Assembly: GCA_027923505.1 (NCBI GenBank)
Contig: BROI01000013.1
Coordinates: forward strand, 620,001-684,000
Reading direction: 5' to 3'
DNA: 64,000 nt
Origin: Mayamaea pseudoterrestris
Lineage: Eukaryota > Bacillariophyta > Bacillariophyceae > Sellaphorales > Sellaphoraceae
Positions 12,905 through 48,252 of the stretch are shown here, in pieces. The position numbers and the translations under genes were made by a program. The stretch's first letter is position 1, and every line of letters starts with the position of its first letter. Below the pieces are notes generated by a model that was not told the DNA's origin, ran no database searches, and saw nothing but the letters and a program-made list of their open reading frames with translations.

Positions 12905-15900
12905 CTATGTAATTGTTACGCCAGCTTGTGCAGCTACAGTGGCTGATTCAACCTCCATGAGGAGATGCAATTGTTGAATCAACCAGGTGAACCGCTTAAA
13001 CGATGCATCCTCGACTTGCTCTGAAACATTGAGACCATGTTGCGTCTTGGCAAACATACTCAGTAAATACATGTCTGTCTCGGCCGCCCTTTCCAGCATG
13101 TCAATCGTTGGCGCTGCATGTCCGCACAAAGTCAACGTGGCAAGGTTGACTACACTGACAAGCGACTTCAAATCCGATCGTTTCTCGCAAATGCACCGAA
13201 AACGAGAAAGATTTGCCGCAGCGGCAATGATTCTTTTGCATGTTCGCGAATCTAAACTTTCTACAAGCGTGGTGCGATCGTCCCTGGCGGCGCCTTCTAT
13301 GTCGTGGCACAAATCTTCAGCGCTATACGCAAACGGACGAAAGTTTCGGAAACCATCCGCGGTTTGTAACGCAGCAGCCCACTGGGCGAGCTCGCTGTGG
13401 AACCATTTGACAACGGGTGTAAGGGTTGACGGCGAGGGGTCAAAACCGTGCGCCACCATAAACATCTTTTCCAAGAGTCCAATGATACGAATTGCAAACG
13501 TCCGCGGATGCAGGCTCCCCACAAAAATTTTGTCGACTGCATTTGTCAAGTCTCGCTCACTTTTGCAGGCAACTGAAAGTGCCTGCCAGTTAAATTGGGG
13601 AGTGGCATTGTCGGTGATGCTACTGTTACTGTTTTGCATGTCGGTGCTTGTTCGCAAACTTTCTTCAAGGTGCCCTTCACGCCAGACCGGAAGTCCCCAA
13701 CGCGTCACACCCTTGAAAAAGTCGGCTTCTACAAGCGATATAGCCAGCATTCCTTTTTGCTTGCGAATGACTTGCTGCTGCTGCGGTTGCTGAGTAGGCA
13801 TAATATCTGGTTGGGGCGTAGTCGACCCATTCTCTGTAGCAATCAATGCGTTTTTCGTTGCGGTCGTTCCTGGCATGTCAACAGGCATGCCATTCTGGGT
13901 CAAGGCTGGTGCAAGTTCGTCAGTCATGATGCCGTGCTGCTCCGGGGCAGTTGCGAGTCGGAAGTGATGCGTAGAGTTCATCGTTGCTTGGTCGACCAAG
14001 ACTTGTTCGAGAACCACGGCGTTTTCCTCTGACATGCGTTCACCTACAGGAAGTAATGGCTGCTCCGGAACCGTTACAAGTCCGACTGGAAGCGGATTGT
14101 CTTGGACTGAAACCAAAGCAGCGTCGTTGTCAGTAAATGGCGTTGGATTCAAGTTGTTTACCTGATCACGAGTAGACGCAGATCCTTCGGTGGCAGCGGT
14201 AGGAGCTGCACATGTCGGCGGAGAAAAGTCCGAGTTTTGCTCTAGTGTATTGCCTCCGTGCTGCACTATGACGCGCGACTCTGGTTCAGGTGAAAGTGGA
14301 AGCATTGGATCAGAAGCACCTTCAATGGCGGAAGGTGACACATCCAGCACGTGCACTGACGCGTCAAGTCCTCGCTGCGGTTCATCCAAAGGCAATCCTT
14401 GTAAATCCAATCGAAGGTTCTTGCTCGGCTCAGTGTGAGGCTGCTCGTGTACATCAAGCGGACTCGAGTTTGCTTCCATGATCGGTCCGAGCCCCGGAAG
14501 GCACATCTTGCCATGTTCCAAGACCACGTCACTGCTTTCCGATCCTTGCAGCATTATTGTCGGCATCGCCTCCAAGAGCGCTCGTTTAGTGGATTGCTTA
14601 ATGTTTTGAACCAGAGTCGATATAATCGCAATAATGACGTTTTCGTCCAGTACTTCCACCCAATTTTTTGTTACAGTGAAGTGTTTTTTCGATTGTAAAT
14701 CAATAATGATGCTACGATCCTTCTGAAAGAATCTCCGCCCTTCTTGCTTCATCGTCCGAATAACTTCCTTGGCAAGTTGTTTATTAAAATGCCATTTGGG
14801 TTGTTTCATGTAGTCGTTCATTCGTTCTTTTACTAGATTGTGGTAGTAGATGTTGCCAGCTTGCCTAGAAAGATTGCCTTTGCCGAGGAGAATATCACGG
14901 GGCGTTGGTTCAACAAAGCAGCTCTGATCTCGCACACCATTCGATGCTTGAATGGCTGGTGTCATACTGTCGTTGCTTTTCTCCATGGTCTCAGTGATCG
15001 AATCAACTTTTAGACTGGTATTCTTGCTCGAATCGTCAGGCTCCTTAATTGACTCATCTCGTGAATCCATGTTACTCTGCAATTGTTTCGTTGCTACCAC
15101 GCTTTTTTTGCTTTCGTTCAATGGAAGCTGCAATGGCATCTTCGTTATTTTGGCTTTGTCGCAAGAATCAAACTCTGCAAGACTTTTACGATGATGCGTC
15201 AACTCGGGCGCCGCCAGAGTCGTCTCGCCGTCCTGTAAGCCTTTTAAACGTTTGGCGGGTTGCATTGGCAAGACCGAATCGAGTAGTGCAGGTCGCTTTA
15301 TCAGGTTTTTAGGCGCAATGCTTCCGGCCGGTGGCTGCGGTTGCTCGAGTGGCAACGCTCCGAGATGATCATGCGTAGAATTTTTCTCCGACTCGTCGGG
15401 AGGCTGCTGCAAGTACTCTTGTTGTGATTCATGACTATGTCCGCCATCCTGTATTGAATTGTGACAATTATATTCTCGAGAATCCTTGTAATGTTCTAAC
15501 GCAGTGCTGCTTTCTTTCCCGCTACTTTCGGACTTCTGCATGCTGCTGCAATTAGCCCGCTTTTCATTTAAAAGCTTGTAGACATTATACAATCTCCTCG
15601 TAATTCTTTTGATAATGACTTCTTCATCTAAGATTTCCAGCCAGTCGTTTGTCGCTAAGGATAATTTCCTTCCTTGCGCGTCAATGGTAGCTAATAGTTT
15701 CTTTTGAAGGAAGCGGCCGCCGCTTTGCTTGATTGACTGCAAGATTTCAATTGCCACTTGCCTTCCAAAAAAGCCTCGTTTGCTCCTGTAATCGTTGACT
15801 CGCGCAAGCAATAATTTGTGAAATTGAATGTTTTTGTTTGATTGGGTGCCTTGGACGAAAAGAACATCGAGCGGAGTCGGAATGACAGGAATTCGTTCTT

Positions 15901-15961
15901 CCACTCGCTCTTCATCCATTGCCTCATTCGCTGCAGCCGCAATCTCGCTGCCTTTCTCCAT
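12905..15961 (-). CDS. Protein with two DUF6824 domains
   Basis: Single-exon protein of 1018 aa from ATG 15961 (the open frame extends six codons upstream to a TTG). Two copies of the diatom-expanded DUF6824 domain are visible. Copy 1 (about residues 28-125) has TPLDVLFVQGTQSN, FHKLLLARVNDY, SIKQSGGRFLQK and WLEILDEEVIIKRI. Copy 2 (about 350-455) has TPRDILLGKGNLSRQAGN, YYHNLVKERMNDY, TMKQEGRRFFQKD and WVEVLDENVIIAII. Copy 2 keeps the canonical D-I-L-L-G-K-G box; copy 1 has a degenerate V-L-F-V-Q-G. The middle is Pro/Gln/Glu-rich low complexity. The last 250 residues are a predicted helical region of unknown function. DUF6824 proteins are often guessed to be nuclear regulators, but no function is established to my knowledge. 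Confidence 0.85.
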   Translation of the reverse strand: MEKGSEIAAAANEAMDEERVEERIPVIPTPLDVLFVQGTQSNKNIQFHKLLLARVNDYRSKRGFFGRQVAIEILQSIKQSGGRFLQKKLLATIDAQGRKLSLATNDWLEILDEEVIIKRITRRLYNVYKLLNEKRANCSSMQKSESSGKESSTALEHYKDSREYNCHNSIQDGGHSHESQQEYLQQPPDESEKNSTHDHLGALPLEQPQPPAGSIAPKNLIKRPALLDSVLPMQPAKRLKGLQDGETTLAAPELTHHRKSLAEFDSCDKAKITKMPLQLPLNESKKSVVATKQLQSNMDSRDESIKEPDDSSKNTSLKVDSITETMEKSNDSMTPAIQASNGVRDQSCFVEPTPRDILLGKGNLSRQAGNIYYHNLVKERMNDYMKQPKWHFNKQLAKEVIRTMKQEGRRFFQKDRSIIIDLQSKKHFTVTKNWVEVLDENVIIAIISTLVQNIKQSTKRALLEAMPTIMLQGSESSDVVLEHGKMCLPGLGPIMEANSSPLDVHEQPHTEPSKNLRLDLQGLPLDEPQRGLDASVHVLDVSPSAIEGASDPMLPLSPEPESRVIVQHGGNTLEQNSDFSPPTCAAPTAATEGSASTRDQVNNLNPTPFTDNDAALVSVQDNPLPVGLVTVPEQPLLPVGERMSEENAVVLEQVLVDQATMNSTHHFRLATAPEQHGIMTDELAPALTQNGMPVDMPGTTATKNALIATENGSTTPQPDIMPTQQPQQQQVIRKQKGMLAISLVEADFFKGVTRWGLPVWREGHLEESLRTSTDMQNSNSSITDNATPQFNWQALSVACKSERDLTNAVDKIFVGSLHPRTFAIRIIGLLEKMFMVAHGFDPSPSTLTPVVKWFHSELAQWAAALQTADGFRNFRPFAYSAEDLCHDIEGAARDDRTTLVESLDSRTCKRIIAAAANLSRFRCICEKRSDLKSLVSVVNLATLTLCGHAAPTIDMLERAAETDMYLLSMFAKTQHGLNVSEQVEDASFKRFTWLIQQLHLLMEVESATVAAQAGVTIT

Positions 15962-16439
15962 GGCTACTTCAATATTCAAGCAGATGAGACTCTTGCCGAG
16001 ACGACTATTGGGAGGTTCTCCCTCTCCCTTTACGTGCCTTGCTTGCCAAACAAGTGAAGAGAAGGAGACGAAGAATCGGCCTTTCGCGTGCGATGAAATA
16101 ATCGCAGTGGTTATCCCATCGTCTGACCGGTACTCCTGCGACGCTGACTACTCCTACAAATGTACGAGCACTAACAGGGGCCTTCATCATTCAAAGCTTG
16201 CTCTCCAGCAATTAATAGCAACGCAGTGAAAACATTTTTCTTCTTAAAAGGATCACTGGTGAGCCAAGGACTCAGAATGGGATAAGGCAGCCAGCAACTG
16301 CGGACTTGCCTGGGGCAAAGAAATTTTGGCAGTCCTACTCGCAGAACTTGGAGACTAGATGGGCTAGTGATGAATGCAGTGCAAATTTTCTGCATCATGA
16401 AACAATGCCTGTTGCCTGTGAGCTATCATTTTATACCCT
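15962..16439. promoter_or_regulatory. Promoter of DUF6824 gene and boundary to the satellite
   Basis: 478 bp upstream of the minus-strand DUF6824 gene, up to the first recognisable, strongly diverged satellite sequence near 16440. No gene motif is seen in the short ORFs. Confidence 0.4.
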
Positions 16440-17298
16440 CTATGGCTATTGGCATGATTTATGGCAGCCAGCTGCTGTGGCTTCAATGCAACTTGTGAAA
16501 GCTTTTACCAGTCTTAGCCCGCAAGAAAGTGCCCCTTGAACATCTCTTGTATAAAGCCAAATACAACAGAATGGTGCCAAACTCATTATTCAGGCTGCGC
16601 TACAAGATGGTAGGCTTGGCTGGTGTCTCAGGCTATGGCAATGATATTGGTGACAACTTGTCACCAGTCTCAGCCCGCAAATGCCGTGACATTCAAACGC
16701 CCCTACAGCAAGCCCTGTAGGTGCCCAGAGTCCACCAGAATGGTGCCAACATCATTATTCAGGCTGCGCTACAAGATGGTAGGCTTGGCTGGTGTCTCAG
16801 GGGATGGCAATGTATTTGGCGACAACTTGTCACCAGTCTCAGCCCGCATTTGCCATGACATTCAAACGCTTCTACAGCAAGCCCTGTAGGTGCCCAAATT
16901 CCACCAGAATGGTGCCAAACTCATTATTCCGGCTGCGCTACAAGATGGTAGGCTTGGTTGGTGTCTCAGGCTATGGCAATGATATTGGTGACAACTTGTC
17001 ACCAGTCTCAGCCCGCAGATGCCGTGACATTCAAACGCCCCTACAGCAAGCCCTGTAGGTTCCCAGATTCCACCAGAATGGTGCCAACATCATTATTCAG
17101 GCTGCGCTACAAGATGGTAGGCTTGGCTGGTGTCTCAGGCTATGGCAATGATATTGATGACAACTTGTCACCAGTCTCAGCCCGCAGATGCCGTGACAAC
17201 TAAACGCCCCTACAGCAAGCCCTGTAGGTGCCCAAATTACACCAGAATGGTGCCAACATCATTTTCAGGCTGCGCTACAAGATGGTTGGCTTGGCTGG

Positions 17299-20200
17299 TG
17301 TCTCCGGGGATGGCAATGTATTTGGTGACAACTTGTCACCAGTCTCAGCCCGCAGATGCCGTGACACTCAAACGCATCTACAGCAAGCCCTGTAGGTGCC
17401 CAGATTACACCAGAATGGTGCCAACATCATTATTTAGGCTGCGCTAGCTACAAGATGGCAGGCTTGGTTGGTGTCTCAGGGGATGGCAATGATATTGGTG
17501 ACAACTTGTCACCAATCTCAGCCGACAGATGCCGTGACATTCAAACGCCCCTACAGCAAGCCCTGTAGGTGCCCAGATTACACCAGAATGGTGCCAACAT
17601 CATTATTCAGGCTGCGCTACAAGATGGTAGGCTTGGTTGGTGTCTCAGGGGATGGAAATGTATTTGGTGACAACTTGTCACCAGTCTCAGCCCGCAGATG
17701 CCGTGACATTCAAACGCTTCTACAGCAAGCCCTGTAGGTGACCAAATTACACCAGAATGGTGCCAAACTCATTATTCTAGCTGCGCTACAAGATGGTAGG
17801 CTTGGTTGGTGTCTCAGGCTATGGCAATGATATTGGTGACAACTTGTCACCAGTCTCAGCCCGCAGATGCCGTGACATTCAAAGCCCCTACAACAAGCCC
17901 TGTAGGTGCCCAAATTACACCAGGATGGTGCCAACATCATTATTCAGGCTGCGCTACAAGATGGTAGGCTTGGCTGGTGTCTCAGGCTATGGCAATGATA
18001 TTGGTGACAACTTGTCACCAGTCTCAGCCCACAGATGCCGTGACAACTAAACGCCCCTACAGCAAGCCCTGTAGGTGCCTAAAATACACCAGAATGGTGC
18101 CAACATCATTTTCAGGCTGCGCTACAAGATGGTAGGCTTGGCTGGTGTCTCCGGGGATGGCAATGTATTTGGTGACAACTTGTCACCAGTCTCAGCCCGC
18201 AGATGCCGTGACACTCAAACGCATCTACAGCAAGCCCTGTAGGTGCCCAGATTACACCAGAATGGTGCCAACCTCATTATTCAGGCTGCGCTACAAGATG
18301 GCAGGCTTGGTTGGTGTCTCAGGGGATGGCAATGATATTGGTGACAACTTGTCACCAATCTCAGCCGACAGATGCCGTGACATTCAAATGCCCCTACAGC
18401 AAGCCCTGTAGGTGCCCAGATTACACCAGAATAGTGCCAACATCATTATTCAGGCTGCGCTACAAGATGGTAGGCTTGGTTGGTGTCTCAGGGGATGGCA
18501 ATGTATTTGGTGACAACTTGTCACCAGTCTCAGCCCGCAGATGCCGTGACATTCAAACGCCCCTACAGCAAGCCCTGTAGGTGCCCAAATTACACCAGAA
18601 TGGTGCCAACATCATTATTCAGGCTGCGCTACAAGATGGTAGGCTTGGTTGGTGTCTCAGGCTATGGCAATGATATTGGTGACAACTTGTCACCAGTCTC
18701 AGCCCGCCAATGCCGTGACATTCAAACGCCCCTACAGCAAGCCCTGTAGGTGCCCAGAGTCCACCAGAATGGTGCCAACATCATTATTCAGGCTGCGCTA
18801 CAAGATGGTAGGCTTGGCTGGTGTCTCAGGGGATGGCAATGTATTTGGTGACAACTTGTCACCAGTCTCAGCCCACATATGCCATGACATTCAAACGCTT
18901 CTACAGCAAGCCCTGTAGGTGCCCAAATTCCACCAGAATGGTGCCAAACTCATTATTCAGGCTGCGCTACAAGATGGTAGGCTTGGTTGGTGTCTCAGGC
19001 TATGGCAATGATATTGGTGACAACTTGTCACCAGTCTCAGCCCGCAGATGCCGTGACATTCAAACGCCCCTACAGCAAGCCCTGAGTGCCCAATGGGCGG
19101 CTGCGCTAAAAGGTAGGTGCCCAGATGCCGAACACCAGAATGGTGCCTCCATCATTATTCAGGCTGCGCTACAAGATGGTTGGCTTGGCTGGTGTCTCAG
19201 GGGATGGCAATGTATTTGGTGACAACTTGTCACCAGTCTCAGCCCGCAGATGCCGTGACACTCAAACGCATCTACAGCAAGCCCTGTAGGTGCCCATATT
19301 ACACCAGAATGGTGCCAACATCATTATTTAGGCTGCGCTACAAGATGGCAGGCTTGGTTGGTGTCTCAGGGGATGGCAATGATATTGGTGACAACTTGTC
19401 ACCAATCTCAGCCCGCAGATGCCGTGACATTCAAACGCCCCTACAGCAAGCCCTGTAGGTGCCCAGATTACACCAGAATGGTGCCAACATCATTATTCAG
19501 GCTGCGCTACAAGATGGTAGGCTTGGTTGGTGTCTCAGGGGATGGAAATGTATTTGGTGACAACTTGTCATCAGTCTCAGCCCGCAGATGCCGTGACATT
19601 CAAACGCTTCTACAGCAAGCCCTGTAGGTGACCAAATTACACCAGAATGGTGCCAAACTCATTATTCAGGCTGCGCTACAAGATGGTAGGCTTGGTTGGT
19701 GTCTCAGGCTATGGCAATGATATTGGTGACAACTTGTCACCAGTCTCAGCCCGCAGATGCCGTGACATTCAAAGCCCCTACAGCAAGCCCTGTAGGTGCC
19801 CTGATTCCACCAGAATGGTGCCAACATCATTATGCAGGCTGCGCTACAAGATGGTAGGCTTGGCTGGTGTCTCAGGCTATGGCAATGATATTGGTGACAA
19901 CTTGTCACCAGTCTCAGCCCGCAGATGCCGTGACATTCAAACGCCCCTACAGCAAGCCCTGTAGGTGCCCAGATTACACCAGAATGGTGCCAACCTCATT
20001 ATTCAGGCTGCGCTACAAAATGGCAGGCTTGGTTGGTGTCTCAGGGGATGGCAATGATATTGGTGACAACTTGTCACCAATCTCAGCCGACAGATGCCGT
20101 GACATTCAAACGCCCCTACAGCAAGCCCTGTAGGTGCCCAAATTACACCAGAATGGTGCCAACATCATTATTCAGGCTGCGCTACAAGATGGTAGGCTTG
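17299..20200 (+). repeat. Five-monomer higher-order repeat zone
   Basis: Diagnostic variants recur with a period of about 845 bp (5 x 169). TCTCCGGGGATGG occurs at 17301 and 18148. The rare GCCGACAGATGCC variant occurs at 17521 and 18365, and again at 20086. An irregular segment of about 38 extra bases interrupts the third cycle near 19085-19130. Confidence 0.75.
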
Positions 20201-23200
20201 GTTGGTGTCTCAGGGGATGGCAATGTATTTGGTGACAACTTGTCACCAGTCTCAGCCCGCAGATGCCGTGACATTCAAACGCCCCTACAGCAAGCCCTGT
20301 AGGTGCCCAAATTACACCAGAATGGTGCCAACATCATTATTCAGGCTGAGCTACAAGATGGTATGCTTGGATGGTGTCTCAGGCTATGGCAATGATATTG
20401 GTGACAACTTTTCACCAGTCTCAGCCCGCAGATGCCGTGACATCTAAACGCCCCTACAACAAGCCCTGTAGGTGCCCAAATTACACCAGGATGGTGCCAA
20501 CATCATTATTCAGGCTGCGCTACAAGATGGTAGGCTTGGCTGGTGTCTCAGGGGATGGCAATGTATTTGGTGACAACTTGTCACCAGTCTCAGCCCGCAG
20601 ATGCCGTGACACTCAAACGCATTTACAGCAAGTCTTGTAGGTGCCCAAATCACACCAGAATGGTGCCAACCTCATTATTTAGGCTGCGCTACAAGATGGT
20701 AGGCTTGATTGGTGTCTCAGGGGATGGCAATGTATTTGGTGACAACTTGTCACAAGTCTCAGCCCGTAGATGCCATGACATTCAAACGCTTCTACAGCAA
20801 GCCCTGTAGGTGCCCAAATTGCACCAGAATGGTGCCAACATCATTATTCAGGCTGCGCTACAAGATGGTAGGCTTGGTTGGTGTCTCAGGGGATGGCAAT
20901 GATATTGGTGACAACTTGTCACCAGTCTCAGCCCGCAGATGCCGTGACATTCAAACGCCCCTACAGCAAGCCCTGTAGGTGCCCAGATTACACCAGAATG
21001 GTGCCAACATCATTATTCAGGCTGCGCTACAAGATGGCAGGCTTGGCTGGTGTCTCAGGCTATGGCAATGATATTGGTGACAACTTGTCACCAATCTCAG
21101 CCAGCAGATGCCGTGACATCTAAACGCCCCTACAGCAAGCCCTGTAGGTGCCCAAATTGCACCAGAATGGTGCCAACATCATTATTCAGGCTGCGCTACA
21201 AGATGGTAGGCTTGGTTGGTGTCTCAGGGGATGGAAATGTATTTGGTGACAACTTGTCACCAGTCTCAGCCCGCAGATGCCGTGACACTCAAACGCATCT
21301 ACAGCAAGCCCTGTAGGTGCCCAAATCACACCAGAATGGTGCCAACCTCATTATTCAGGCTGCGCTACAAGATGGTAGGCTTGATTGGTGTCTCAGGGGA
21401 TGGCAATGATATTGGTGACAACTTGTCACCAGTCTCAGCCCTCAGATGCCGTGACATCTAAACGCCCCTACAGCAAGCCCTGTAGGTGCCCAAATTGCCC
21501 AGAATGGTGCCAACATCATTATTCAGGCTGCGCTACAAGATGGTAGGCTTGGTTGGTGTCTCAGGGGATGGCAATGATATTGGTGACAACTTGTCGCCAG
21601 TCTCAGCCCGCAGATGCCATGACATTCAAACGCTTCTACAGCAAGCCCTGTAGGTGCCCAAATTGCCCAGAATGGTGCCAACATCATTATTCAGGCTGCG
21701 CTACAAGATGGTAGACTTGGTTGGTGTCTCAGGGGATGGCAATGAGACTGGTGACAACTTGTCACCAGTCTCAGCCCACAGATGCCATGACATTCAAACG
21801 CTTCTACAGCAAGCCCTGTAGGTGCCCAAATTGCCCAGAATGGTGCCAACATCATTATTCAGGCTGCGCTACAAGATGGTAGACTTGGTTGGTGTCTCAG
21901 GGGATGGCAATGATATTGGTGACAACTTGTCACCAGTCTCAGCTGGCAGATGCTGTGACATTCAAACGCCCCTACAGCAAGCCCAGTCGGTGCCCAGATT
22001 ACACCAGAATGGTGCCAACATCATTATTCAGGCTGCGCTACAAGATGTTAGGCTTGGTTGGTGTCTCCGGGGATGGCAATGATATTGGTGACAACTTGTC
22101 ATCAGTCTCAGCCCGCAGATGCCATGACATTCAAATGCTTCTACAGCAAGCCCTGTAGGTGCCCAGATTACACCAGAATGGTGCCAACAACATTATTCAG
22201 GCTGCGCTACAAGATGGCAGGCTTGGTTGGTGTCTCAGGTGATGGAAATGTATTTGGTGACAACTTGTCACCAGTCTCAGCCCGCAGATGCCATGACATT
22301 CAAACGCTTCTACAGCAAGCCCTGTAGGTGCCCAAATTGCACCAGAATGGTGCCAACATCATTATTCAGGCTGCGCTACAAGATGTTAGGCTTGGTTGGT
22401 GTCTCCGGGGATGACAATGATATTGGTGACATCTTGTCATCAGTCTCAGCCCGCAGATGCCATGACATTCAAACGCTTCTACAGCAAGCCCTGTAGGTGC
22501 CCAGATTACACCAGAATGGTGCCAACATCATTATTCAGGCTGCGCTACAAGATGGTAGGCTTGGTTGGTGTCTCAGGCTATGGCAATGATATTGGTGACA
22601 ACTTGTCACCAGTCTCAGCTGGCAGATGCTGTGACATTTAAACGCCCCTACAGCAAGCCCAGTCGGTGCCCAGATTACACCAGAATGGTGCCAACATCAT
22701 TATTCAGGCTGCGCTACAAGATGGTAGGCTTGGTTGGTGTCTCAGGGGATGAAAATGTATTTGGTGACAACTTGTCACCAGTCTCAGCCCGCAGATGCCG
22801 TGACATTCAAACGCCCCTACAGCAAGCCCTGTAGGTGCCCTAATTACACCAGAATGGTGCCAACATCATTATTCAGGCTGGGCTACAAGATGGTAGGCTT
22901 GGCTGGTGTCTCAGGCTATGGCAATGATATTGGTGACAACTTGTCACCAGTCTCAGCCCGCAGATGCCGTGACACTCAAACGCATCTACAGCAAGCCCTG
23001 TAGGTGCCCAAATCACACCAGAATGGTGCCAACCTCATTATTCAGGCTGCGCTACAGGATGGTAGGCTTGATTGGTGTCTCAGGGGATGGCATTGTATTT
23101 GATGAAAACTTGTCACCAGTCTCAGCCCGCAGATGCCATGACATTAAAATGCTTCTACAGCAAGCCCTGTAGGTGCCCAAATTACACCAGAATGGTGCCA

Positions 23201-23579
23201 ACATCATTATTCAGGCTGCGCTACAAGATGGTAGGCTTGGTTGGTGTCTCAGGGGATGGCAATGATATTGGTGACAACTTGTCACCAGTCTCAGCTGGCA
23301 GATGCTGTGACATCTTAACGCCCCTACAGCAAGCCCTGTAGGTGCCCAAATTACACCAGAATGGTGCCAACATCATTATTCAGGCTGCGCTACAAGATGG
23401 TAGGCTTGGCTGGTGTCTCAGGGGATGGCAATGTATTTGGTGACAACTTGTCACCAGTCTCAGCCCGCAGATGCCGTGACACTCAAACGCATCTACAGCA
23501 AGCCCTGTAGGTGCCCAAATCACACCAGAATGGTGCCAACCTCATTATTCAGGCTGCGCTACAAGATTGTAGGCTTGAT

Positions 23580-26500
23580 TGGTGTCTCAGGGGATGGCAA
23601 TGTATTTGGTGACAACTTGTCACCAGTCTCAGCCCGCATATGCCATGACATTCAAACGCTTCTACAGCAAGCCCTGTAGGTGCCCAAATCACACCAGAAT
23701 TGTGCCAACCTCATTTTTTAGGTTGCGCTACAAGATGGTAGGCTTGGTTGGTGTCTCAGGGGATGGCAATGTATTTGGTGACAACTTGTCACCAGTCTCA
23801 GCCCGCAGATGCCGTGACATTCAAACGCCCCTACAGCAAGCCCTGTAGGTTCCCAAATTACACCAGTATGGTGATAACATCATTATTCAGGCTGAGCTAC
23901 AAGATGGTATGCTTGGCTGGTGTCTCAGGCTATGGCAATGATATTGTTGACAACTTGTCACCAGTCTCAGCCCGCAGATGCCATGACATCTAAACGCCCC
24001 TACAGCAAGCCCTGTAGGTGCCCAAATTACACCAGAATGGTGCCAACATCATTATTCAGGCTGCGCTACAAGACATGATGGTAGGCTTGGCTGGTGTCTC
24101 AGGGGATGGCAATGTATTTGGTGACAACTTGTCACCAGTCTCAGCCCGCAGTTGCCGTGACACTCAAACGCATCTACAGCAAGCCCTGTAGGTGCCCAAA
24201 TCACACCAGAATGGTGCCAACCTCATTATTTCGGCTGCGCTACAAGATGGTAGGCTTGATTGGTGTCTCAGGGGATGGCAATGTATTTGGTGACAACTTG
24301 TCACCAGTCTCAGCCCGCAGATGCCATGACATTCAAACGCTTCTACAGCAAGCCCTGTAGGTTCCCAAATTGCACCAGAATGGTGCCAACATCATTATTC
24401 AGGCTCCGCTACAAGATGGTAGGCTTGGTTGGTGTCTCAGGGGATGGCAATGATATTGGTGACAACTTGTCACCAGTCTCAGCTGGCAGATGCCATGACA
24501 TTTAAACGCCCCTACAGCAAGCCCAGTCGGTGCCCAGATTACACCAGAATGGTGCCAACATCATTATTCAGGCTGCGCTACAAGATGGTAGGCTTGGATG
24601 GTGTCTCAGGGGATGAAAATGTATTTGGTGACAACTTGTCACCAGTCTCAGCCGGCAGATGCCGTGACATTCAAACGCCCCTACAGCAAGCCCTGTAGGT
24701 GCCCTAATTACACCAGAATGGTGCCAACATCATTATTCAGGCTGGGCTACAAGATGGTAGGCTTGGCTGGTGTCTCAGGCTATGGCAATGATATTGGTGA
24801 CAACTTGTCACCAGTCTCAGCCCGCAGATGCCGTGACATCTAAACACCCCTACAGCAAGCCCTGTAGGTGCCCAAATTACACCAGAATGGTGCCAACATC
24901 ATTATTCAGGCTGCGCTACAAGATGGTAGGCTTGGCTGGTGTCTCAGGGGATGGCAATGTATTTGGTGACAACTTGTCACCAGTCTCAGCCCCCAGATGC
25001 CGTGACACTCAAACGCCCCTACAGCAAGCCCTGTAGGTGCCCAAATCACACCAGAATTGTGCCAACATCATTATTCAGGGTGCGCTACAAGATGGTATGC
25101 TTGGCTGGTGTCTCAGGGGATGGCAATGTATTTGGTGACAACTTGTCACCAGTCTCAGCCCGCATATGCCATGACATTCAAACGCTTCTACAGCAAGCCC
25201 TGTAGGTGCCCAAATCACACCAAAATTGTGCCAACCTCATTTTTTAGGTTGCGCTACAAGATGGTAGGCTTGGTTGGTGTCTCAGGGGATGGCAATGTAT
25301 TTGGTGACAACTTGTCACCAGTCTCAGCCCGCAGATGCCGTGACATTCAAACGCCCCTACAGCAAGCCCTGTAGGTTCCCAAATTACACCAGTATGGTGA
25401 TAACATCATTATTCAGGCTGAGCTACAAGATGGTATGCTTGGCTGGTGTCTCAGGCTATGGCAATGATATTGTTGACAACTTGTCACCAGTCTCAGCCCG
25501 CAGATGCCATGACATCTAAACGCCCCTACAGCAAGCCCTGTAGGTGCCCAAATTACACCAGAATGGTGCCAACATCATTATTCAGGCTGCGCTACAAGAC
25601 AAGATGGTAGGCTTGGCTGGTGTCTCAGGGGATGGCAATGTATTTGGTGACAACTTGTCACCAGTCTCAGCCCGCAGTTGCCGTGACACTCAAACGCATC
25701 TACAGCAAGCCCTGTAGGTGCCCAAATCACACCAGAATGGTGCCAACCTCATTATTTCGGCTGCGCTACAAGATGGTAGGCTTGATTGGTGTCTCAGGGG
25801 ATGGCAATGTATTTGGTGACAACTTGTCACCAGTCTCAGCCCGCAGATGCCATGACATTCAAACGCTTCTACAGCAAGCCCTGTAGGTTCCCAAATTGCA
25901 CCAGAATGGTGCCAACATCATTATTCAGGCTCTGCTACAAGATGGTAGGCTTGGTTGGTGTCTCAGGGGATGGCAATGATATTGGTGACAACTTGTCACC
26001 AGTCTCAGCTGGCAGATGCCATGACATTTAAACGCCCCTACAGCAAGCCCAGTCGGTGCCCAGATTACACCAGAATGGTGCCAACATCATTATTCAGGCT
26101 GCGCTACAAGATGGTAGGCTTGGATGGTGTCTCAGGGGATGAAAATGTATTTGGTGACAACTTGTCACCAGTCTCAGCCGGCAGATGCCGTGACATTCAA
26201 ACGCCCCTACAGCAAGCCCTGTAGGTGCCCTAATTACACCAGAATGGTGCCAACATCATTATTCAGGCTGGGCTACAAGATGGTAGGCTTGGCTGGTGTC
26301 TCAGGCTATGGCAATGATATTGGTGACAACTTGTCACCAGTCTCAGCCCGCAGATGCCGTGACATCTAAACACCCCTACAGCAAGCCCTGTAGGTGCCCA
26401 AATTACACCAGAATGGTGCCAACATCATTATTCAGGCTGCGCTACAAGATGGTAGGCTTGGCTGGTGTCTCAGGGGATGGCAATGTATTTGGTGACAACT

Positions 26501-26631
26501 TGTCACCAGTCTCAGCCCCCAGATGCTGTGACACTCAAACGCCCCTACAGCAAGCCCTGTAGGTGCCCAAATCACACCAGAATTGTGCCAACATCATTAT
26601 TCAGGGTGCGCTACAAGATGGTAGGCTTGGT
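23580..26631 (+). repeat. Tandem duplication of a 1526-bp nine-monomer block
   Basis: Sequence from about 23580 to 25105 is repeated immediately at about 25106-26631 with offset 1526 bp (8 x 169 + 174). Both copies carry the same unique 5-bp insertion (ACATG near 24072, ACAAG near 25597) and the same rare changes (CACCAGTATGGTGATAACATC, GTTGACAACTTGTCACC). I noticed only a handful of differences between the copies, so this is a recent unequal exchange or amplification. Confidence 0.85.
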
Positions 26632-27985
26632 TGGTGTTTCAGGAGATGGCAATGATATTGGTGACAACTTGTCACCAGTCTCAGCCGGCAGATGCAGTGA
26701 CATTCAAACACCCCTACAGCAAGCCCTGTAGGTGCCAAGATTACACCAGAATGGTGCCAACATCATTATTCAGCCTGCGCTACAAGATGGTAGGCTTGAT
26801 TGGTGTCTCAGGGGATGGCAATGTATTTGGTGACAACTTGTCACCAGTCTCAGCCCGCAGATGCCATGACATTCAAACGCTTCTACAGCAAGCCCTGTAG
26901 GTGCCCAAATTGCACCAGAATGGTGCCAACATCATTATTCAGGCTCCGCTACAAGATGGTAGGCTTGGTTGGTGTCTCAGGGGATGGCAATGATATTGGT
27001 GACAACTTGTCACCAGTCTCAGCTGGCAGATGCCATGACATTTAAACGCCCCTACAGCAAGCCCAGTCGGTGCCCAAATTACACCAGAATGGTGCCAACA
27101 TCATTATTCAGGCTGCGCTACAAGATGGTAGGCTTGGCTGGTGTCTCAGGGGATGGCAATGTATTTGGTGACAACTTGTCACCAGTCTCAGCCCGCAGAT
27201 GCCATGACATTCAAACGCTTCTACAGCAAGCCCTGTAGGTGCCCAAATTGCACCAGAATGGTGCCAACATCATTATTCAGGCTGCGCTACAAGATGGTAG
27301 GCTTGGCTGGTGTCTCAGGGAATGGCAATGTATTTGGTGACAACTTGTCACCAGTCTCAGCCCGCAGATGCCGTGACACTCAAACGCATCTACAGCAAGC
27401 CCTGTAGGTGCCCAAATCACACCAGAATGGTACCAACCTCATTATTCAGGCTGCGCTACAAGATGGTAGGCTTGATTGGTGTCTCAGGGGATGGCAATGT
27501 ATTTGGTGACAACTTGTCACCAGTCTCAGCCCGCAGATGCCATGACATTCAAACGCTTCTACAGCAAGCCCTGTAGGTGCCCAAAATACACCAGATTGGT
27601 GTCAACATCATTATTCAGGCTGCGCTACAAGATGGTAGGCTTGGTTGGTGTCTCAGGGGATGGCAATGATATTGGTGACAACTTGTCACCAGTCTCAGCT
27701 GGCAGATGCCATGACATTTAAACGCCCCTACAGCAAGCCCAGTCGGTGCCCAGATTACACCAGAGTGGTGCCAACATCATTATTCAGGCTGCGCTACAAG
27801 ATGGTAGGCTTGGATGGTGTCTCAGGGGATGAAAATGTATTTGGTGACACCTTGTCACCAGTCTCAGCCCGCAGATGCCGTGACATTCAAACGCCCCTAC
27901 AGCAAGCCCTGTAGGTGCCCTAATTACACCAGAATGGTGCCAACATCATTATTCAGGCTGGGCTACAAGATGGTAGGCTTGGCTG

Positions 27986-29960
27986 GTGTCTCAGGCTATG
28001 GCAATGATATTGGTGACAACTTGTCACCAGTCTCAGCCCGCAGATGCCGTGACATCTAAACACCCCTACAGCAAGCCCTGTAGGTGCCCAAATTACACCA
28101 GAATGGTGCCAACATCATTATTCAGGCTGCGCTACAAGATGGTAGGCTTGGCTGGTGTCTCAGGGAATGGCAATGATATTGGTGACAACTTGTCACCAGT
28201 CTCAGCCCGCAGATGCCGTGACATTTAAACACCCCTACAGCAAGCCCTATATGTTCCCAAAGTACACCAGAATGGTGCCAACATCATTATTCAGGCTGCG
28301 CTACAAGATGGTAGGCTTGATTGGTGTCTCAGGGGATGGCAATGTATTTGGTGACAACTTGTCACCAGTCTCAGCCCGCAGATGCCGTGACATTCAAACG
28401 CTTCTACAGCAAGCCCTGTAGGTGCCCAGATTACACCAGAATGGTGCCAACATTATTATTCAGGCTGCGCTACAAGATGGTAGGCTTGGCTGGTGTCTCA
28501 GGGGATGGCAATGATATTGGTGACAACTTGTCACCAGTCTCAGCCCGCAGATGCCGTGACATTCAAACGCCCCTACAGCAAGCCCTGTAGGTGCCCAAAT
28601 TACACCAGAATGGTGCCAACATCATTCTTCAGGCTGCGCTACAAGATGGTAGGCTTGGCTGGTGTCTCAGGGGATGGCAATGTATTTGGTGACAACTTGT
28701 CACCAGTCTCAGCCCGCAGATGCTGTGACATTCAAACGCTTCTACAGCAAGCCCTGTAGGTGCCCAAGTTACACCAGAATGGTGCCAACCTCATTCTTCA
28801 GGCTGCGCTACAAGATGGTAAGCTTGGTTGGTGTCTCAGGGGATGGCAATGATATTGGTGACAACTTGTCACCAGTCTCAGCCCAAAGATGCCGTGAGAT
28901 TCAAACGCCCCTACAGCAAGCCCTGTAGGTGCCCAGATTACACCAGAATGGTGCCAACATCATTCTTCAGGCTGTGCTACAAGATGGTAGGCTTGGTTGG
29001 TGTCTCAGGGGATGGCAATGATATTGGTGACAACTTGTCACCAGTCTCAGCCCAAAGATGCTGTGACATTCAAACGCCCCTACAGCAAGCCCTGCAGGTG
29101 CCCAAATTACACCAGAATGGTGCCAACATCATTATTCAGGCTACGCTACAAGATGGTAGGCTTGGTTGGTATCTCAGGGGATGGCAATGATATTGGTGAC
29201 AACTTGTCACCAATCTCAGCCCGCAGATGCCGTGACATTCAAACGCCCCTACAGCAAGCCCTGTAGGTGCCCAAATTACACCAAAATGGTGCCAACATCA
29301 TTATTCCGGCAGAGCTATAAGATGGTAGGCTTGGCTGGTGTCTCAGGGGATGGCAATGTATTTGGTGACAACTTGTCACCAGTCTCAGCCGGCAGATGCC
29401 GTGACATTCAAACGCTTCTACAGCAAGCCCTGTAGGTGCCCTGATTACACCAGAATGGTGCCAACCTCATTATTCAGGCTGCGCTACAAGGTGGAAGGCT
29501 TGGCTGGTGTCTCAGGGGATGGCGATGTATTTGGTGACAACTTGTCACCAGTCTCAGCCCGCAGATGCTGTGACATTCAAACGCCCCTACAGCAAGCTTT
29601 GTAGGTGCCCAAATTACACCAGAATGGTGCCAACATCATAATGCAGGCTACACTACAAGCTGGTAGGCTTGGCTGGTGTCTCAGGCTATGGCAATGATAT
29701 TGGTGACAACTTGTCACCAGTCTCAGCCCGCAGATGCCGTGACATCTAAACGCCCCTACAGCAAGCCCTGTAGGTGCCCAAATTACACCAGAATGGTGCC
29801 AACATCATTATTCAGGCTGCGCTACAAGATGGTAGGCTTGGCTGGTGTCTCAGGGAATGGCAATGATATTGGTGACAACTTGTCACCAGTCTCAGCCCGC
29901 AGATGCCGTGACATTTAAACACCCCTACAGCAAGCCCTATATGTTCCCAAAGTACACCAG
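27986..29960 (+). repeat. 1690-bp (ten-monomer) repeated variants
   Basis: The rare monomer end CCTATATGTTCCCAAAGTAC occurs at about 28247 and again exactly 1690 bp later at about 29937, with the preceding two monomers also matching. The sequence between is less well conserved than in the nine-monomer duplication. Confidence 0.7.
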
Positions 29961-30654
29961 AATGGTGCCAACATCATTATTCAGGCTGGGCTACAAGATG
30001 GTAGGCTTGGCTGGTGTCTCAGGCTATGGCAATGATATTGGTGACAACTTGTCACCAGTCTCAGCCCGCAGATGCCGTGACATTCAAACGCCCCTACAGC
30101 AAGCCCTGTAGGTGCCCAAATTACACCAGAATGGTGCCAACATCATTATTCAGGCTGCGCTACAAGATGGTAGGCTTGGCTGGTGTCTCAGGCTATGGCA
30201 ATGATATTGGTGACAACTTGTCACCAGTCTCAGCCAGCAGATGCCGTGACATTCAAACGCCCCTAGATCAGGCCCTGTAGGTGTTCAAATTACACCAGAA
30301 TTGTGCCAACATCATTATGCAGGCTGCGCTACAAGATGGTAGGCTTGGCTGTTGTCGCTAGGGATGGCAATGATATTGTTGACAACTTGTCACCAATCTC
30401 AGCCCGCAGATGCCGTGACATTCAAACGCCCCTACAGCAAGCCCTGTAGGTGCCGAGATTACACCAGAATGGTGCCAACATCATTATTCAGGCTGCGCTA
30501 CAAGATGGTAGGCTTGGTTGGTGTCTCAGGGGATGGCAATGTATTTGGTGACAACTTGTCACCAGTCTCAGCCCGCAGATGCTGTGACATTCAAACGCTT
30601 CTACAGCAAGCCCTGTAGGTGCCCAAGTTACACCAGAATGGTGCCAACCTCATT

Positions 30655-31930
30655 ATTCAGGCTGCGCTACAAGATGGTAGGCTTGGCTGGTGTTTAAGGG
30701 TTGGCAATGTATTTGGTGACAACTTGTCACCAGTCTCAGCCCACAGATGCCGTGACACTCAAACGCTTCTACAGCAAGCCCTGTAAGTGCCCAGATTACA
30801 CCAAAATGGTGCCAACATCATCATTCAGGCTGCGCTACAAATTGGTAGGCTTGGTTGGTGTCTCAGGGGATGGCAATGATATTGGTGACAACTTGTCACC
30901 AGTCGCAGCCCGCAGATGCCGTGACATTCAAACGCCCCTACAGCAAGCCCTGTAGGTGCCCTGATTACACCAGAATGGTGCCAATATCATTATTCTAGCT
31001 GCGCTACAAGATGGTAGGCTTGGCTGGTGTCTCAGGGAATGGCAATGTATTTGGTGACAACTTGTCACCAGTCTCAGCCCGCAGATGCCATGAGATTCAA
31101 ACGCCCCTACAGCAAGCCCTGTAGGTGCCCAGATTACACCAGAATGGTGCCAACATCATTTTTCAGGCTGCGCTACAAGATGGTAGGCTTGGTTGGTGTC
31201 TCAGGGGATGGCAATGATATTGGTGACAACTTGTCACCAGTCTCAGCCCAAAGATGCCGTGACATTCAAACGCATCTACAGCAAGCCCTGCAGGTGCCCA
31301 AATCACACCAGAATGGTGACAACATCATTATTCAGGCTGCGCTACAAGATGGTAGGCTTGGTTGGTGTCTCAGGGGATGGCAATGATATTGGTGACAACT
31401 TGTCACCAGTCTCAGCCCGCAGATGCCGTGACATTCAAACGCCCCTACAGCAAGCCCTGTAGGTGCCCAAATTACACCAGAATGGTGCCAACATCATTAT
31501 TCAGGCTGCGCTACAAGATGGTAGGCTTGGCTGGTGTCTCAGGGAATGGCAATGTATTTGGTGACAACTTGTCACCAGTCTCAGCCCACAGATGCAGTGA
31601 CACTCAAACGCTTCTACAGCAAGCCCTGTAAGTGCCCAGATTACACCAAAATGGTGCCAACATCATCATTCAGGCTGCGCTACAAATTGGTAGGCTTGGT
31701 TGGTGTCTCAGGGGATGGCAATGATATTGGTGACAACTTGTCACCAGTCGCAGCCCGCAGATGCCGTGACATTCAAACGCCCCTACAGCAAGCCCTGTAG
31801 GTGCCCTGATTACACCAGAATGGTGCCAATATCATTATTCTAGCTGCGCTACAAGATGGTAGGCTTGGCTGGTGTCTCAGGGAATGGCAATGTATTTGGT
31901 GACAACTTGTCACCAGTCTCAGCCCGCAAT
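30655..31930 (+). repeat. 845-bp (five-monomer) repeated variants near the right end
   Basis: Variants CTACAAATTGGTAGG, CACCAGTCGCAGCCC and CATCATCATTCAGG occur together near 30800-30910 and again 845 bp downstream near 31650-31755. Confidence 0.75.
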
Positions 31931-33180
31931 TGCTGTGACATTCAAATGCCCATACAGCAAGCCCTGTAGGTGCCTAAATTACACCAGAATGGTGCCAACA
32001 TCATTATTCTGGCTGCGCTACAAGATGGTATGCTTGGTTGGTGTCTCAGGGGATGGCAATGATATTGGTGACAACTTGTCACCAGTCTCAGCCCGCAGAT
32101 GCCGCGAGATTCAAACGCCCCTACAGCAAGCCCTGTAGGTGCCGAGATTACACCAGAATGGTGCCAACATCATTATGCAGTTACAAGATGGTAGGCTTGG
32201 TTGGTGCCTCAGGGGATGGCAATGTAATTGGTGACAACTTGTCACCAGTCTCAGCCCGCAGATGCCGTGACATTCAAACGCCCCTACAGCAAGCCCTGCA
32301 GGTGCCCAAAATACACCAGAATGGTGCCAACATCATTATTTAGGCTGAGCTACAAGATGGTAGGCTTGGCTGGTGTCTCAAGGGATGGCAATGATATTGG
32401 TGACAACTTGTCACCAATCTCAACCCGCAGATGCCGTGAGATTCACACGCCCCTACAGCAAGCCCTGTAAGTTCCCAAATTCCACCAGAATGGTGCCAAC
32501 ATCATTATATGGGCTGCGCTACAAATTGGTAGGCCTGGCTGGTGTCTCAGGGAATGGCGATGTATTTGGTGACAACTTGTCACCAGTCTCAGCCTGCAGA
32601 TGCCGTGAGATTCAAACGCCCCTACAGCAAGCCCTGTAGGTGCCCAGATTACACCAGAATGGTGCCAACATCATTCTTCAGGCTGCGCTACAAGATGGTA
32701 GGCTTGGTTGGTGTCTCAGGGGATGGCAATGATATTGGTGACAACTTGTCACCAGTCTCAGCCCAAAGATGCCGTGAGATTCAAACGCCCCTACAGCAAG
32801 CCCTGTAGGTGCCCAGATTACACCAGAATGGTGCCAACATCATTCTTCAGGCTGCGCTACAAGATGGTAGGCTTGGTTGGTGTCTCAGGGGATGGCAATG
32901 TATTTGGTGACAACTTGTCACCAGTCTCAGCCCGCAGATGCCGTGACATTCAAACGCCCCTTCAGCAAGCCCTGTAGGTGCCCAAATTACACCATAATGG
33001 TGCCAACATCATATTCAGGCTACGCTACAAGATGGTAGGCTTGGCTGGTGTCTCAGGGGATGCTGAGACATTTAAACGCCCCTACAGCAAGCCATCTTTA
33101 CTCCCAAATTACACCAGAATGGTGCCAACATCATTATTCAGTCTGCGCTACAAGATGGTATGACTGGCGGATGTCTAGTA

Positions 33181-33461
33181 GCCTGCAATGGGACTGATGT
33201 GATTGTGCCGCCTATTCAAGCAGTCTGGTTACCACAAAATAGCTAGCGGTTTGCAAGAATGAAAAGCGTCGCATTCGTCACACTGCGGGAAATTGGAAGA
33301 TCGTGATCGTCCGTCGATCTCGACCATGACACGAGATTCGCCGCCGTCAATTGTCAAACCTACATATACAAGCATCTCCTTTCCATAATACAATCAGTCT
33401 GCTCTTAGTTCAGAGCCTCTGTCAGGTTACAAGTCCAATACATTACAGCAGCAGCTGCACC
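33181..33461. promoter_or_regulatory. Satellite right flank and rhodanese promoter
   Basis: Short unique stretch between the end of the array and the rhodanese gene start. The first 25 bp still resemble a diverged monomer (TATGACTGGCGGATGTCT then GTAGCCTGCAATGG). No gene. Confidence 0.4.
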
Positions 33462-33911
33462 ATGGGTCAATCACTGTCATCATTTTCTCGCGACGACGAC
33501 ACCACCACAGCATCCGTCAAGCAGCAGGAATTATCCGACGAGGATATTCAAGCGGAACGCCGTCGACTCGAGTACAAGATTGTCTCTCATGACGTCGTCA
33601 AGCAGGCTGCCCGCGATCCATCCTGCTACTGGGTCGACGTGCGCAGCGAGGAGGAGGTGATCAACCGCAAGATTGGCTACGTTTCCACCGACAAGCGATG
33701 GGTGTATGCGCCATGTCACGACGACGCCTGTCCTATACTTCAAGTGACGGCGGAAAATATGATTCCCGAAAAGAATGCTCAGATTATTGTGTATTGTTCG
33801 TCGGGAAGGAGGGCTGCCATTGCCAAGGAAACGTTGGAAGGCAAGGGCTACACGAATGTTATCAATGCTGGAGGACTTGTCGATGTATTTTATCCGCGGA
33901 AGCGAAAGTAG
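33462..33911 (+). CDS. Rhodanese-domain protein with N-myristoylation-type start
   Basis: 149 aa from ATG 33462, which has a good context (A at -3, G at +4). The frame is open upstream only from a TTG, so this ATG is preferred. The protein starts MGQSLSS, with Gly2 and Ser6 as in N-myristoylation signals, then an acidic helical linker. The rhodanese/Cdc25-like domain spans about residues 45-145. YWVDVRSEEEV is the usual first strand, and the active-site loop VYCSSGRRAA carries the catalytic Cys followed by a Ser/Gly/Arg-rich phosphate-type loop and GYTNVINAGG. Single-domain rhodaneses transfer sulfane sulfur or bind oxyanions; the substrate is unknown. Membrane attachment by myristate is inferred. 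It is the first gene to the right of the satellite. Confidence 0.85.
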   Translation: MGQSLSSFSRDDDTTTASVKQQELSDEDIQAERRRLEYKIVSHDVVKQAARDPSCYWVDVRSEEEVINRKIGYVSTDKRWVYAPCHDDACPILQVTAENMIPEKNAQIIVYCSSGRRAAIAKETLEGKGYTNVINAGGLVDVFYPRKRK

Positions 33912-39693: not shown

Positions 39694-40352
39694 TGTGATT
39701 GCTGCTGCTTCTGCTCCTGATTCCTTGATAAATCACAAAATGACTAAGGTGAGGCGTCTATATGCCTATTTGGCACGTAGTTGTTGTAGCAGCAAGCCGT
39801 CTTGCATGTAGCGCCGTCTTGCACTTGCTTGACGAATGGACGAAAATGCCGATGCAATCGTTGTCGTCGTCGGCATCCGATTTTTTCACGTCGGAGCGGT
39901 GATGAACGTCTGTTGTCGGTTCAACGAAGCCGCAGCGGTACTCACAATTGAAGATAATCTACCGGTATGGCTTACCACTGTTATTGGTACGATGAGTTTG
40001 CAGGTTGGCTTGCGGCTGACTAATTGGTACAGTATGTTTGCGGGCGGACTAAGTGGTACCATTAGTTAGCAGGTTGGCTTGCAGCTGATTAGTTGGTATA
40101 GTCAATTCACCCACTTTAGCCTACGACAGCTATGACTTGTCAAGAATGCAATAAAGACACTGCTGTCTATGCATTTCCTTGTTGTCTGCTAGACTTGGAA
40201 GCTCTTGCATGGCTATGCTTCCACCGGTTGTAGTCAAGTGGTCAGGACGTTTGGAATGTACAGAAACGGCCGGTCGTCCATGGCCGCGCACATTGCCAAT
40301 CTCCGCTTCGTCGCCACGCCTCGCGTGCGCGCCCGTTTGAATCAACTTGGAA
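39694..40352. other. Intergenic region with a short tandem duplication
   Basis: 659 bp. Near 40002-40103 a segment is present twice: GCAGGTTGGCTTGC followed by GGCTGACTAATTGGTA in one copy and AGCTGATTAGTTGGTA in the other, about 69 bp apart. No gene recognised. The first part should contain the phytochelatin-synthase-like promoter. Confidence 0.4.
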
Positions 40353-45276: not shown

Positions 45277-46398
45277 TTACAGTCGGAAGCTCATGCTCAT
45301 ACTCATGTACATGTCGCCTTCGTCTTCCTCGTCTTCGTGATCTGCGCCTTGGTCATGGTCGGCTCCAGCTCCTGCACTGCCTTCAACCATGCCATGGTCG
45401 GCTACGGCACTGCCTTCATCCATGCCATGGTCGCCTTCCGCCGCGGGACTGCCGTAGTTGATAGGAGAGCCAATGGAGCCTTCGCCTGGGGTGACGCGTC
45501 CATGTCCACTGTTGTTGCCTCCGGCGGAGCCATTGTTTCCACCGTTTCCGTTGTGGCCACCGGCAGAGCCTCCGTTTCCGCCGCTGTGAGTTGGGCTTGA
45601 GCCTCCGCTGGTAGGACTAGGGCCGCTATGCGTTGGGCTTGGGCCGGTTGGGGTGCGGTGTGTTGGACTTGGGCCGCTCTTGCTCGGGCTTGGACCTCCC
45701 TTGGAGCCTCCCTTCGATCCCTTGCTGGGACTAGGGCCGCCCTTGGAGCCTCCCTTTCCACCCTTGGATCCCTTGCTTGGACTAGGACCTCCCTTGCTGC
45801 CCTTGGAGCCGCCCTTTGATCCCTTACTCGGGCTACCTCCCTTGGAACCTCCCTTCGATCCCTTGCTCGGGCTTGAGCCGCCTTTGCTGCCCTTGGAGCC
45901 TCCCTTTCCGCCCTTGGATCCCTTACTTGGGCTTGAGCCGCCCTTGCTTCCCTTGGAACCTCCCTTGGATCCCTTGCTGGGGCTTCCACCCTTTCCACCC
46001 TTGCTTGATCCGCCCTTGGATCCCTTGCTTGGGCTTCCTCCCTTTCCGCCTTTACTGGATCCTCCCTTGGATCCCTTGCTTGGACTGGAGCCCGAGCCGC
46101 CCTTGCTAGAACCTCCCTTTCCGCCCTTACTGGATCCTCCCTTGCTGCCCTTGGCCGCCTTGGATCCCTTGCTGGACTTGGATCCCTTGCTCAACACCCG
46201 ACGGACGCCTCCATGAATCGGCACTGGCTCCTGCACCCAGAGTGATTCCAGGACGGACGCGGCCGCCGCTCGCTGGTCGACGGCGTCGTCCACCTTGAGG
46301 ACGCTGCGGCGACGGTGACGAACGAGCGAGGAGTCGTCCTGGGCGCACGTTGATGCGACCAAGACTGATAGTAGGAGAAGACAGATTTTGGACATCAT
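45277..46398 (-). CDS. Silaffin-like secreted Lys/Ser/Gly-repeat protein
   Basis: Single-exon 373-aa protein. A signal peptide (ICLLLLSVLVASTCAQ, residues 4-19) is followed by an acidic/basic propeptide-like stretch with RHRRR. GGVRRVLSKGSK at about residue 65 is a candidate R-x-L processing site of the type used in silaffins and cingulins. The core (about 70-240) is built of SKGSKGG, SSKGGKGG and SPSKGSKGG repeats with Lys regularly spaced by Gly and Ser. A Ser/Pro/Thr zone (GPSPTHSGPSPT), a Gly/Asn/His zone and an acidic tail ending DMYMSMSMSFRL follow. Lys-rich, Ser-rich secreted proteins of this build are typical diatom biosilica proteins (polyamine-modified Lys, phosphorylated Ser). The family is assigned by composition, so the silica role is inference. 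The repeat makes the antisense strand a long Pro/Leu-rich shadow ORF. Confidence 0.8.
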   Translation of the reverse strand: MMSKICLLLLSVLVASTCAQDDSSLVRHRRRSVLKVDDAVDQRAAAASVLESLWVQEPVPIHGGVRRVLSKGSKSSKGSKAAKGSKGGSSKGGKGGSSKGGSGSSPSKGSKGGSSKGGKGGSPSKGSKGGSSKGGKGGSPSKGSKGGSKGSKGGSSPSKGSKGGKGGSKGSKGGSSPSKGSKGGSKGGSPSKGSKGGSKGSKGGPSPSKGSKGGKGGSKGGPSPSKGSKGGSKGGPSPSKSGPSPTHRTPTGPSPTHSGPSPTSGGSSPTHSGGNGGSAGGHNGNGGNNGSAGGNNSGHGRVTPGEGSIGSPINYGSPAAEGDHGMDEGSAVADHGMVEGSAGAGADHDQGADHEDEEDEGDMYMSMSMSFRL

Positions 46399-48117: not shown

Positions 48118-48220
48118 TGTAGGCTGCAGTGGTAGCGCAAGGCAATGTGCTTTGCCGTTGCGTTTGTCGCAGGGGTAGTTTCGTTCATAACCGGTCCGAC
48201 TTTAATGGTCATTTGAATGC

Positions 48221-48252
48221 GTGAGCAACCATCGTATTAAAAGACGCCGGCC
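48221..48252 (+). repeat. Left arm of a 32-bp perfect inverted repeat
   Basis: The 32 bases here, beginning GTGAGCAACCATCGTATTAA, are the exact reverse complement of 49135-49166. The arms enclose 882 bp. Similarity continues weakly for about 25 bp on the inner side (GAACG...ATAAA-type). No matching target-site duplication is visible. Confidence 0.9.

Follow-up and report, generated by a model that had tools for sequence, protein, structure and literature searches.

A tandem array of a non-coding unit of 169 bp was found in the diatom Mayamaea pseudoterrestris, within a stretch of 64,000 nucleotides (contig BROI01000013.1, positions 620,001 to 684,000) that is referred to here as the window and whose own numbering is used throughout. 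The array occupies positions 16484-33201 of the + strand and is flanked by two genes that are transcribed away from it. It is probably a satellite array which grew from one copy of a dispersed repeat, became silenced, and persists without a function needed by the cell. The observations on which this explanation draws are the array itself, the conservation of three dyads in its monomer, the alternation of two monomer types, the duplication of a block of monomers, a diverged solo copy elsewhere in the window, the depletion of CpG, and the position between genes.

Tandem Repeats Finder (TRF) calls a repeat with a period of 169 bp, 97.5 copies, and 89% matches at positions 16557-33062. Diverged edge copies matched by nhmmer lie outside this call and set the limits of the whole array, eroded edge monomers included, at 16484 and 33201. 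The left edge copy (16484-16600) has an E-value of 5.7e-14, and the right edge copy (33149-33201) has one of 0.051 over the whole window and 0.0016 in a small search. Anchoring on one conserved motif divides the 16.7 kb array into 98 monomer intervals, 97 of which are full (16601-33025, + strand), with a consensus of 169 bp; the last interval (33026-33148) is a truncated monomer of 123 bp. Lengths are uniform, with 83 of the 97 full monomers at 169 bp, nine at 168 bp, and the other five between 163 and 202 bp. The 202 bp monomer, 33 bases above the usual length, accompanies a separate TRF call with a period of 202 bp at 18931-19296. Monomers are on average 94.7% identical to the consensus and 91.4% identical to one another. 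When identity to the consensus is followed by tens of monomers it stays level, at 0.943-0.959, apart from the final group, to which the truncated copy belongs; erosion is limited to the outermost copies of the array. No open frame of at least 150 codons occurs in the array (the longest stop-free runs are of 136 and 109 codons), and a 27-base core of the monomer has no exact match among viral and prokaryote collections. As a long head-to-tail array of a non-coding unit, this is satellite DNA.

Further analysis revealed two intermingled types of monomer. Among the 97 full monomers, 51 carry GATATT (type A), 45 carry GTATTT (type B), and one carries neither. The two types alternate more often than by chance, forming 68 runs where 48.8 +/- 4.9 are expected (P 0.00035, 20000 shuffles). 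Moreover, a block of nine monomers, 1526 bp long, is duplicated in tandem at 23560-26611 (+ strand), its copies at 23560-25085 and 25086-26611 differing by 8 mismatches; an exact stretch of 593 bp recurs at the lag of 1526. Monomers nine positions apart are more alike than in shuffles (z -4.87), to which the duplicated block contributes, and those four positions apart are somewhat more alike (z -2.7). Adjacent monomers are somewhat less alike (z +2.1), as the A/B alternation predicts. Otherwise similarity does not decay with distance, being 0.913 at lag 1 and 0.912 at lag 39, and besides the nine-monomer block only two runs of three monomers recur, with at most five differences each. A homogeneous centre, eroded edges, and block duplications are the marks of concerted evolution, and the alternation and the block duplication are what unequal exchange and conversion would be expected to leave in an array whose initial form was a repeat of two types.

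The monomer contains three dyads, each present in a single orientation along the array. The 17-bp palindrome GGTGACAACTTGTCACC (monomer positions 49-65; first intact copy at 16649-16665) occurs in 84 exact copies, in all of which the symmetry continues for one more base at either end, giving TGGTGACAACTTGTCACCA with 9-bp arms. The second dyad, CACCAGAATGGTG (monomer positions 133-145; for example at 32652-32664), occurs in 78 exact copies, and the third, CTACAGCAAGCCCTGTAG (CTACAG-CAAGCC-CTGTAG; monomer positions 103-120; for example at 32622-32639), in 75. Outside the array, the window contains no exact copy of any of the three, whichever strand is read. These counts vary with the method, string matching giving 84, 78, and 75 and aligned monomers 84, 77, and 76 of 97; the truncated last monomer is excluded from the aligned-dyad counts, as it is from those of types A and B, dyad variation, and CpG transitions. 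The palindrome is intact in 43 of the 51 type A and 40 of the 45 type B monomers. Arms of at least 9 bases arise in 0.1% of 3000 random monomers drawn from the consensus dinucleotides; the 84-fold repetition is no independent evidence, because the copies share ancestry.

Taken jointly, the three dyads hold 1.5% non-consensus letters against 6.4% outside them, the lowest value of 169 circular placements in what was a post hoc comparison. By medians the gap is smaller (1.0% against 2.1%), because a few of the outside positions are common two-state variants. When each dyad is placed by itself, the 17-bp palindrome stands out most, with 1.8% of placements as low; for the other two the figures are 12% and 9%. 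In none of the dyads was a pair changed on both sides, against 15, 10, and 31 one-sided breaks, so that a DNA site, or mere homogeneity, fits better than a constrained RNA helix. By their low joint variation, the dyads are modestly supported as constrained sites. A sequence-only reading made earlier had described about 98 tandem monomers of 169 bp at 16440-33180 and called them a satellite, and this account holds: the monomer number agrees with both TRF and the anchored intervals, the limits were right to within 44 bases on the left and 21 on the right, and the array structure supports the label. The same reading had reported the 17-bp palindrome in most monomers and a second dyad, both of which were recovered (the palindrome in 84 exact copies for 98 anchored monomers), and it had missed the third. 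It had also suggested that the dyad may be a binding site for a dimeric protein; what the low variation modestly supports is a constrained site.

One further match to the monomer profile was found in the window, a diverged solo copy at 47977-48134. It lies 15 kb from the array and on the same (+) strand, and nhmmer matches it in two parts, 47977-48086 (E 6.7e-18) and 48089-48148 (E 0.016). It is identical to the monomer at 108 of 135 aligned positions (80%), and it lacks the 17-bp palindrome because the match begins at monomer position 61. When its two ends are aligned with each other as an inverted repeat, they match with gaps over about 20 bp at a score of 21, which 14 of 2000 shuffles reached in a post hoc test; as the repeat was seen by eye before it was tested, it is a hint, and no proof, of an element like a miniature inverted-repeat transposable element. 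No ungapped inverted repeat of at least 14 nt bounds 47977-48134, and no target-site duplication was seen by eye at the copy. Beyond the monomer, the flanks of the array and of the solo copy showed no homology, either on the right (score 32, below the 37 that marks the 95% point of the shuffles, these using slightly shorter stretches than the observed comparison) or on the left (score 27 against a shuffle median of 29). Judged by its similarity to the monomer, the solo copy places the monomer sequence outside the array as well, and it does not tell the manner of movement. Its interstitial site between genes favours a dispersed repeat over a single block on each chromosome.

Other identities were considered for the solo copy. 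Its right end appeared tRNA-like by eye, and a tRNA-derived short interspersed nuclear element was rejected after no Rfam tRNA match was found with E up to 5 in 47900-48400 and 32800-33460; ARAGORN detects no tRNA in the window. A match to mir-456 at the copy (E 0.76) was taken as chance. About 86 bp past the solo monomer begins a segment of 946 bp (48221-49166) bounded by 36-bp inverted repeats that are 97% complementary. It resembles a short DNA transposon and has a normal CpG ratio of 0.98.

The array and the solo copy are both poor in CpG. Against an observed/expected ratio of 1.09-1.12 in the flanks, the array has one of 0.32; the solo copy, where 8.9 CpGs would be expected in 158 bp, has none and hence a ratio of 0. 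None of 1848 overlapping flank windows of 158 bp lacks CpG. Conversely, the ratio of TpG and CpA is raised to 1.62-1.74 in the array and the solo copy against 1.20-1.25 in the flanks. The consensus keeps four CpGs, that is, eight positions, at which transitions run at 0.075 per site and copy against 0.024 at the 79 other C/G positions (Mann-Whitney P 0.0012). All four are lost in the solo copy, three of them as TpG or CpA. Depletion of CpG with an excess of TpG and CpA is the pattern associated with CpG-methylated repeats, and long-term CpG methylation would be its plain reading. In diatoms, CG methylation is reported to be concentrated on repeats and transposons, with isolated islands of highly CG-methylated transposons in otherwise unmethylated DNA (PMC9998398).

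CpG-poor DNA was also noted outside the monomers. The left flank of the array (16171-16483) has observed/expected ratios of 0.21-0.25 in windows of 158 bp. Further monomers there were sought and rejected, the match to the consensus standing at the shuffle median (28 against 28). The two halves of this flank resemble each other weakly (score 38, against a shuffle 95% point of 30 and a maximum of 39 in 500 shuffles) and share a 21-nt two-copy repeat with a spacing of 177; the flank may derive from a repeat of similar size that was copied there much earlier. A second stretch, 40051-40250, falls as low as 0.14 and overlaps a direct repeat of 49 bp (39985-40033 and 40054-40102, 86% identical).

From these observations, the following history is proposed for the array. 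A short, non-coding, dispersed repeat of about 160 bp would have placed a single copy between two divergently transcribed genes, and this copy would have multiplied, at first into a repeat of the two types A and B, through unequal exchange or replication slippage. Recombination would keep the centre homogeneous and leave the outermost copies to decay. The cell most likely methylated the CpG sites of the array, as diatoms do with repeats, and the outcome would be a small silenced island within active chromatin. The dyads most likely persist by binding a dimeric protein of the host or of the element, or as a hairpin-forming aid to amplification, and neither would require that they serve the cell. 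Several points weigh against this history. A single solo copy is too little to establish a dispersed family, and it could be a relic seeded from an array; it revealed neither a tRNA head nor a target-site duplication nor coding sequence, and the resemblance between its ends is short and gapped, so that it is at most a candidate mobile element. As for the methylation, 1.1% of 1868 overlapping flank windows of 169 bp are as CpG-poor as the array consensus and the window holds other CpG-poor stretches, so part of the depletion may go back to a founder that was already poor in CpG. In addition, the permutation P for transitions at CpG positions is only 0.031, and transversions are raised there too (0.040 against 0.017).

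The genes around the array bear on whether it could be a centromere. The left neighbour (12905-15961, - strand) encodes a DUF6824 domain (Pfam PF20710, E 2.4e-15), a kind of protein typical of diatoms, and its start codon lies about 520 bp from the array, and the right neighbour (33462-33911, + strand) encodes a rhodanese-like domain (PF00581, E 9.2e-07) and starts about 260 bp away. Both read outward, and the array fills the single divergent intergenic gap between them. Further left are genes for a class I (Glu/Gln-type) tRNA synthetase and a cyclophilin, and further right for a cyclic-nucleotide-binding protein and a phytochelatin synthase; in all, 8 of the 10 window proteins searched matched Pfam. 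These gene-rich surroundings argue against the gene-poor setting of a centromeric satellite. Mean G+C in the array is 50.6%, the same as in the surroundings, with minima of 40% per 100 bp and 48.4% per 500 bp, and by these minima a short AT-rich core of the Phaeodactylum type is absent from the array. No doubled telomere repeats were found.

Primate alpha satellite is built from a unit near 170 bp, with two alternating monomer types and a CENP-B box (TTCGNNNNANNCGGG). The present array is like it in having a unit near 170 bp and two alternating types; unlike it, the array has genes adjacent and no CENP-B box (at least 2 of the 9 fixed letters are wrong in the consensus on either strand, and 3 in the array on the + strand). 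That the array is a centromere or pericentromeric block, in which a dimeric protein occupies the dyads at intervals of one nucleosome in the manner of CENP-B on alpha satellite, would agree with the near-nucleosomal unit, the homogeneity and alternation of the monomers, the joint position of the dyads as the least variable placement, and the signs of CpG methylation. Such a block is nevertheless very unlikely in 16.7 kb confined to one intergenic gap with gene starts so close, with a base composition like the flanks and no AT-rich core, unlike the short and AT-rich centromeres reported for Phaeodactylum (PMC7082073, PMC9266582), with no CENP-B box, and with a solo copy at an ordinary intergenic site. 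The centromere proposed in the sequence-only reading thus finds no support in this setting, and the monomer is not restricted to this locus, as the diverged copy at 47977-48134 indicates. The heterochromatic block proposed along with it is indirectly supported by the CpG depletion and the TpG/CpA excess. A bolder form, in which the CpG-methylated satellite and its dyads recruit a dimeric protein per nucleosome and build a centromere or heterochromatin centre within gene-dense DNA, has very little probability; if true, it would be unlike the short AT-rich centromeres of Phaeodactylum.

Other readings concern the unit itself. The array may be a cis-regulatory repeat, in which two divergent promoters are separated by many dimeric sites for an insulator protein or a transcription factor. 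It does take up the whole space between divergent genes, the joint placement of the dyads varies least among the 169, and the half-sites TGACA/TGTCA presumably recall TALE-homeodomain sites. This reading is still unlikely, as CpG depletion suggests silencing, a promoter-side position may be chance in compact DNA, and the 17-bp palindrome is missing from the solo copy. It is highly improbable that the unit encodes an RNA, structured or self-cleaving, that was amplified in tandem. In its favour, one monomer, the only one folded singly, gave a z of -3.26 on the + strand (1 of 200 shuffles as good) and -0.25 on the - strand, and lax Rfam matches to rne-II were found in two monomers (E 0.0048 and 0.014). 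The scores of the latter, 18.4 and 16.8 bits, are well under the gathering score of 50, and of the 287 model positions only about the final 59 are covered; in the whole window, no Rfam family attains its gathering score. Folded on the + strand in 13 rotations, the consensus gives a z of only -2.2 to -0.5, the controls being shuffles of a single rotation. With no unusually good fold of the consensus and no paired changes in the dyads, only the one-sided breaks counted above, a structured RNA or ribozyme was rejected. Finally, the length of the array could in part be a product of assembly, for instance through repetition of the nine-monomer block by the assembler, as the 593-bp exact stretch at lag 1526 might suggest. 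This is quite improbable for monomers that differ as much as these do (mean pairwise identity of 91.4%), and few other runs recur outside the block, only the two of three monomers; the array cannot be one repeated read.

Two further loci in the window drew attention. At 52654-55515, two adjacent genes look duplicated, sharing 121 bp at 74% identity (53318/54783), and the first of them matches Tudor-like and WRKY19 zinc-finger families in Pfam. On the minus strand at 45277-46416, an open frame contains long Ser-Lys-Gly repeats (SKGSKGG).

The combination of a solo copy with an array has parallels in other organisms. Satellites derived from repeats borne by transposons have been reviewed, with miDNA4 and Xstir of Xenopus, Cg170/HindIII of Crassostrea, and internal repeats of Helitrons among the examples (PMC12628747). 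As described there, the monomer occurs both as a single copy and in long arrays and palindromes are frequent, as in Mayamaea; in contrast to those elements, neither a transposase nor a Helitron end is shown for the solo copy here, and the inverted repeat at its ends is weak and gapped. TCAST-like copies of Tribolium resemble the present case in that monomers, partial and single copies included, lie among genes (PMC3411249). They differ in that their dispersed arrays are described as reaching up to tetramers, whereas here the long array itself lies between genes. Similar too are the stramenopile satellites PpSat1 and PpSat2 of the oomycete Phytophthora parasitica, which form high-copy arrays, low-copy arrays, and solo copies (PMC7290008). 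The single copies of PpSat1 seen there span about 320-340 bp, unlike the 169-bp unit, and the likeness is one of description.

In diatoms, satellites seem to be little described. No diatom nuclear satellite family was found in the open-licence literature, among the titles and abstract openings of the matches listed, and a report on the Pleurosigma genome gives tandem repeats with 34.5% G+C in a text in which a search found neither "satellite" nor "centromer" (PMC12803021). With an array, a nearby solo relic, a trace in CpG, and genes on both sides, the Mayamaea locus offers a test case for the birth and silencing of a satellite in a compact algal genome. It would also serve to test whether any silencing reaches the neighbouring promoters.

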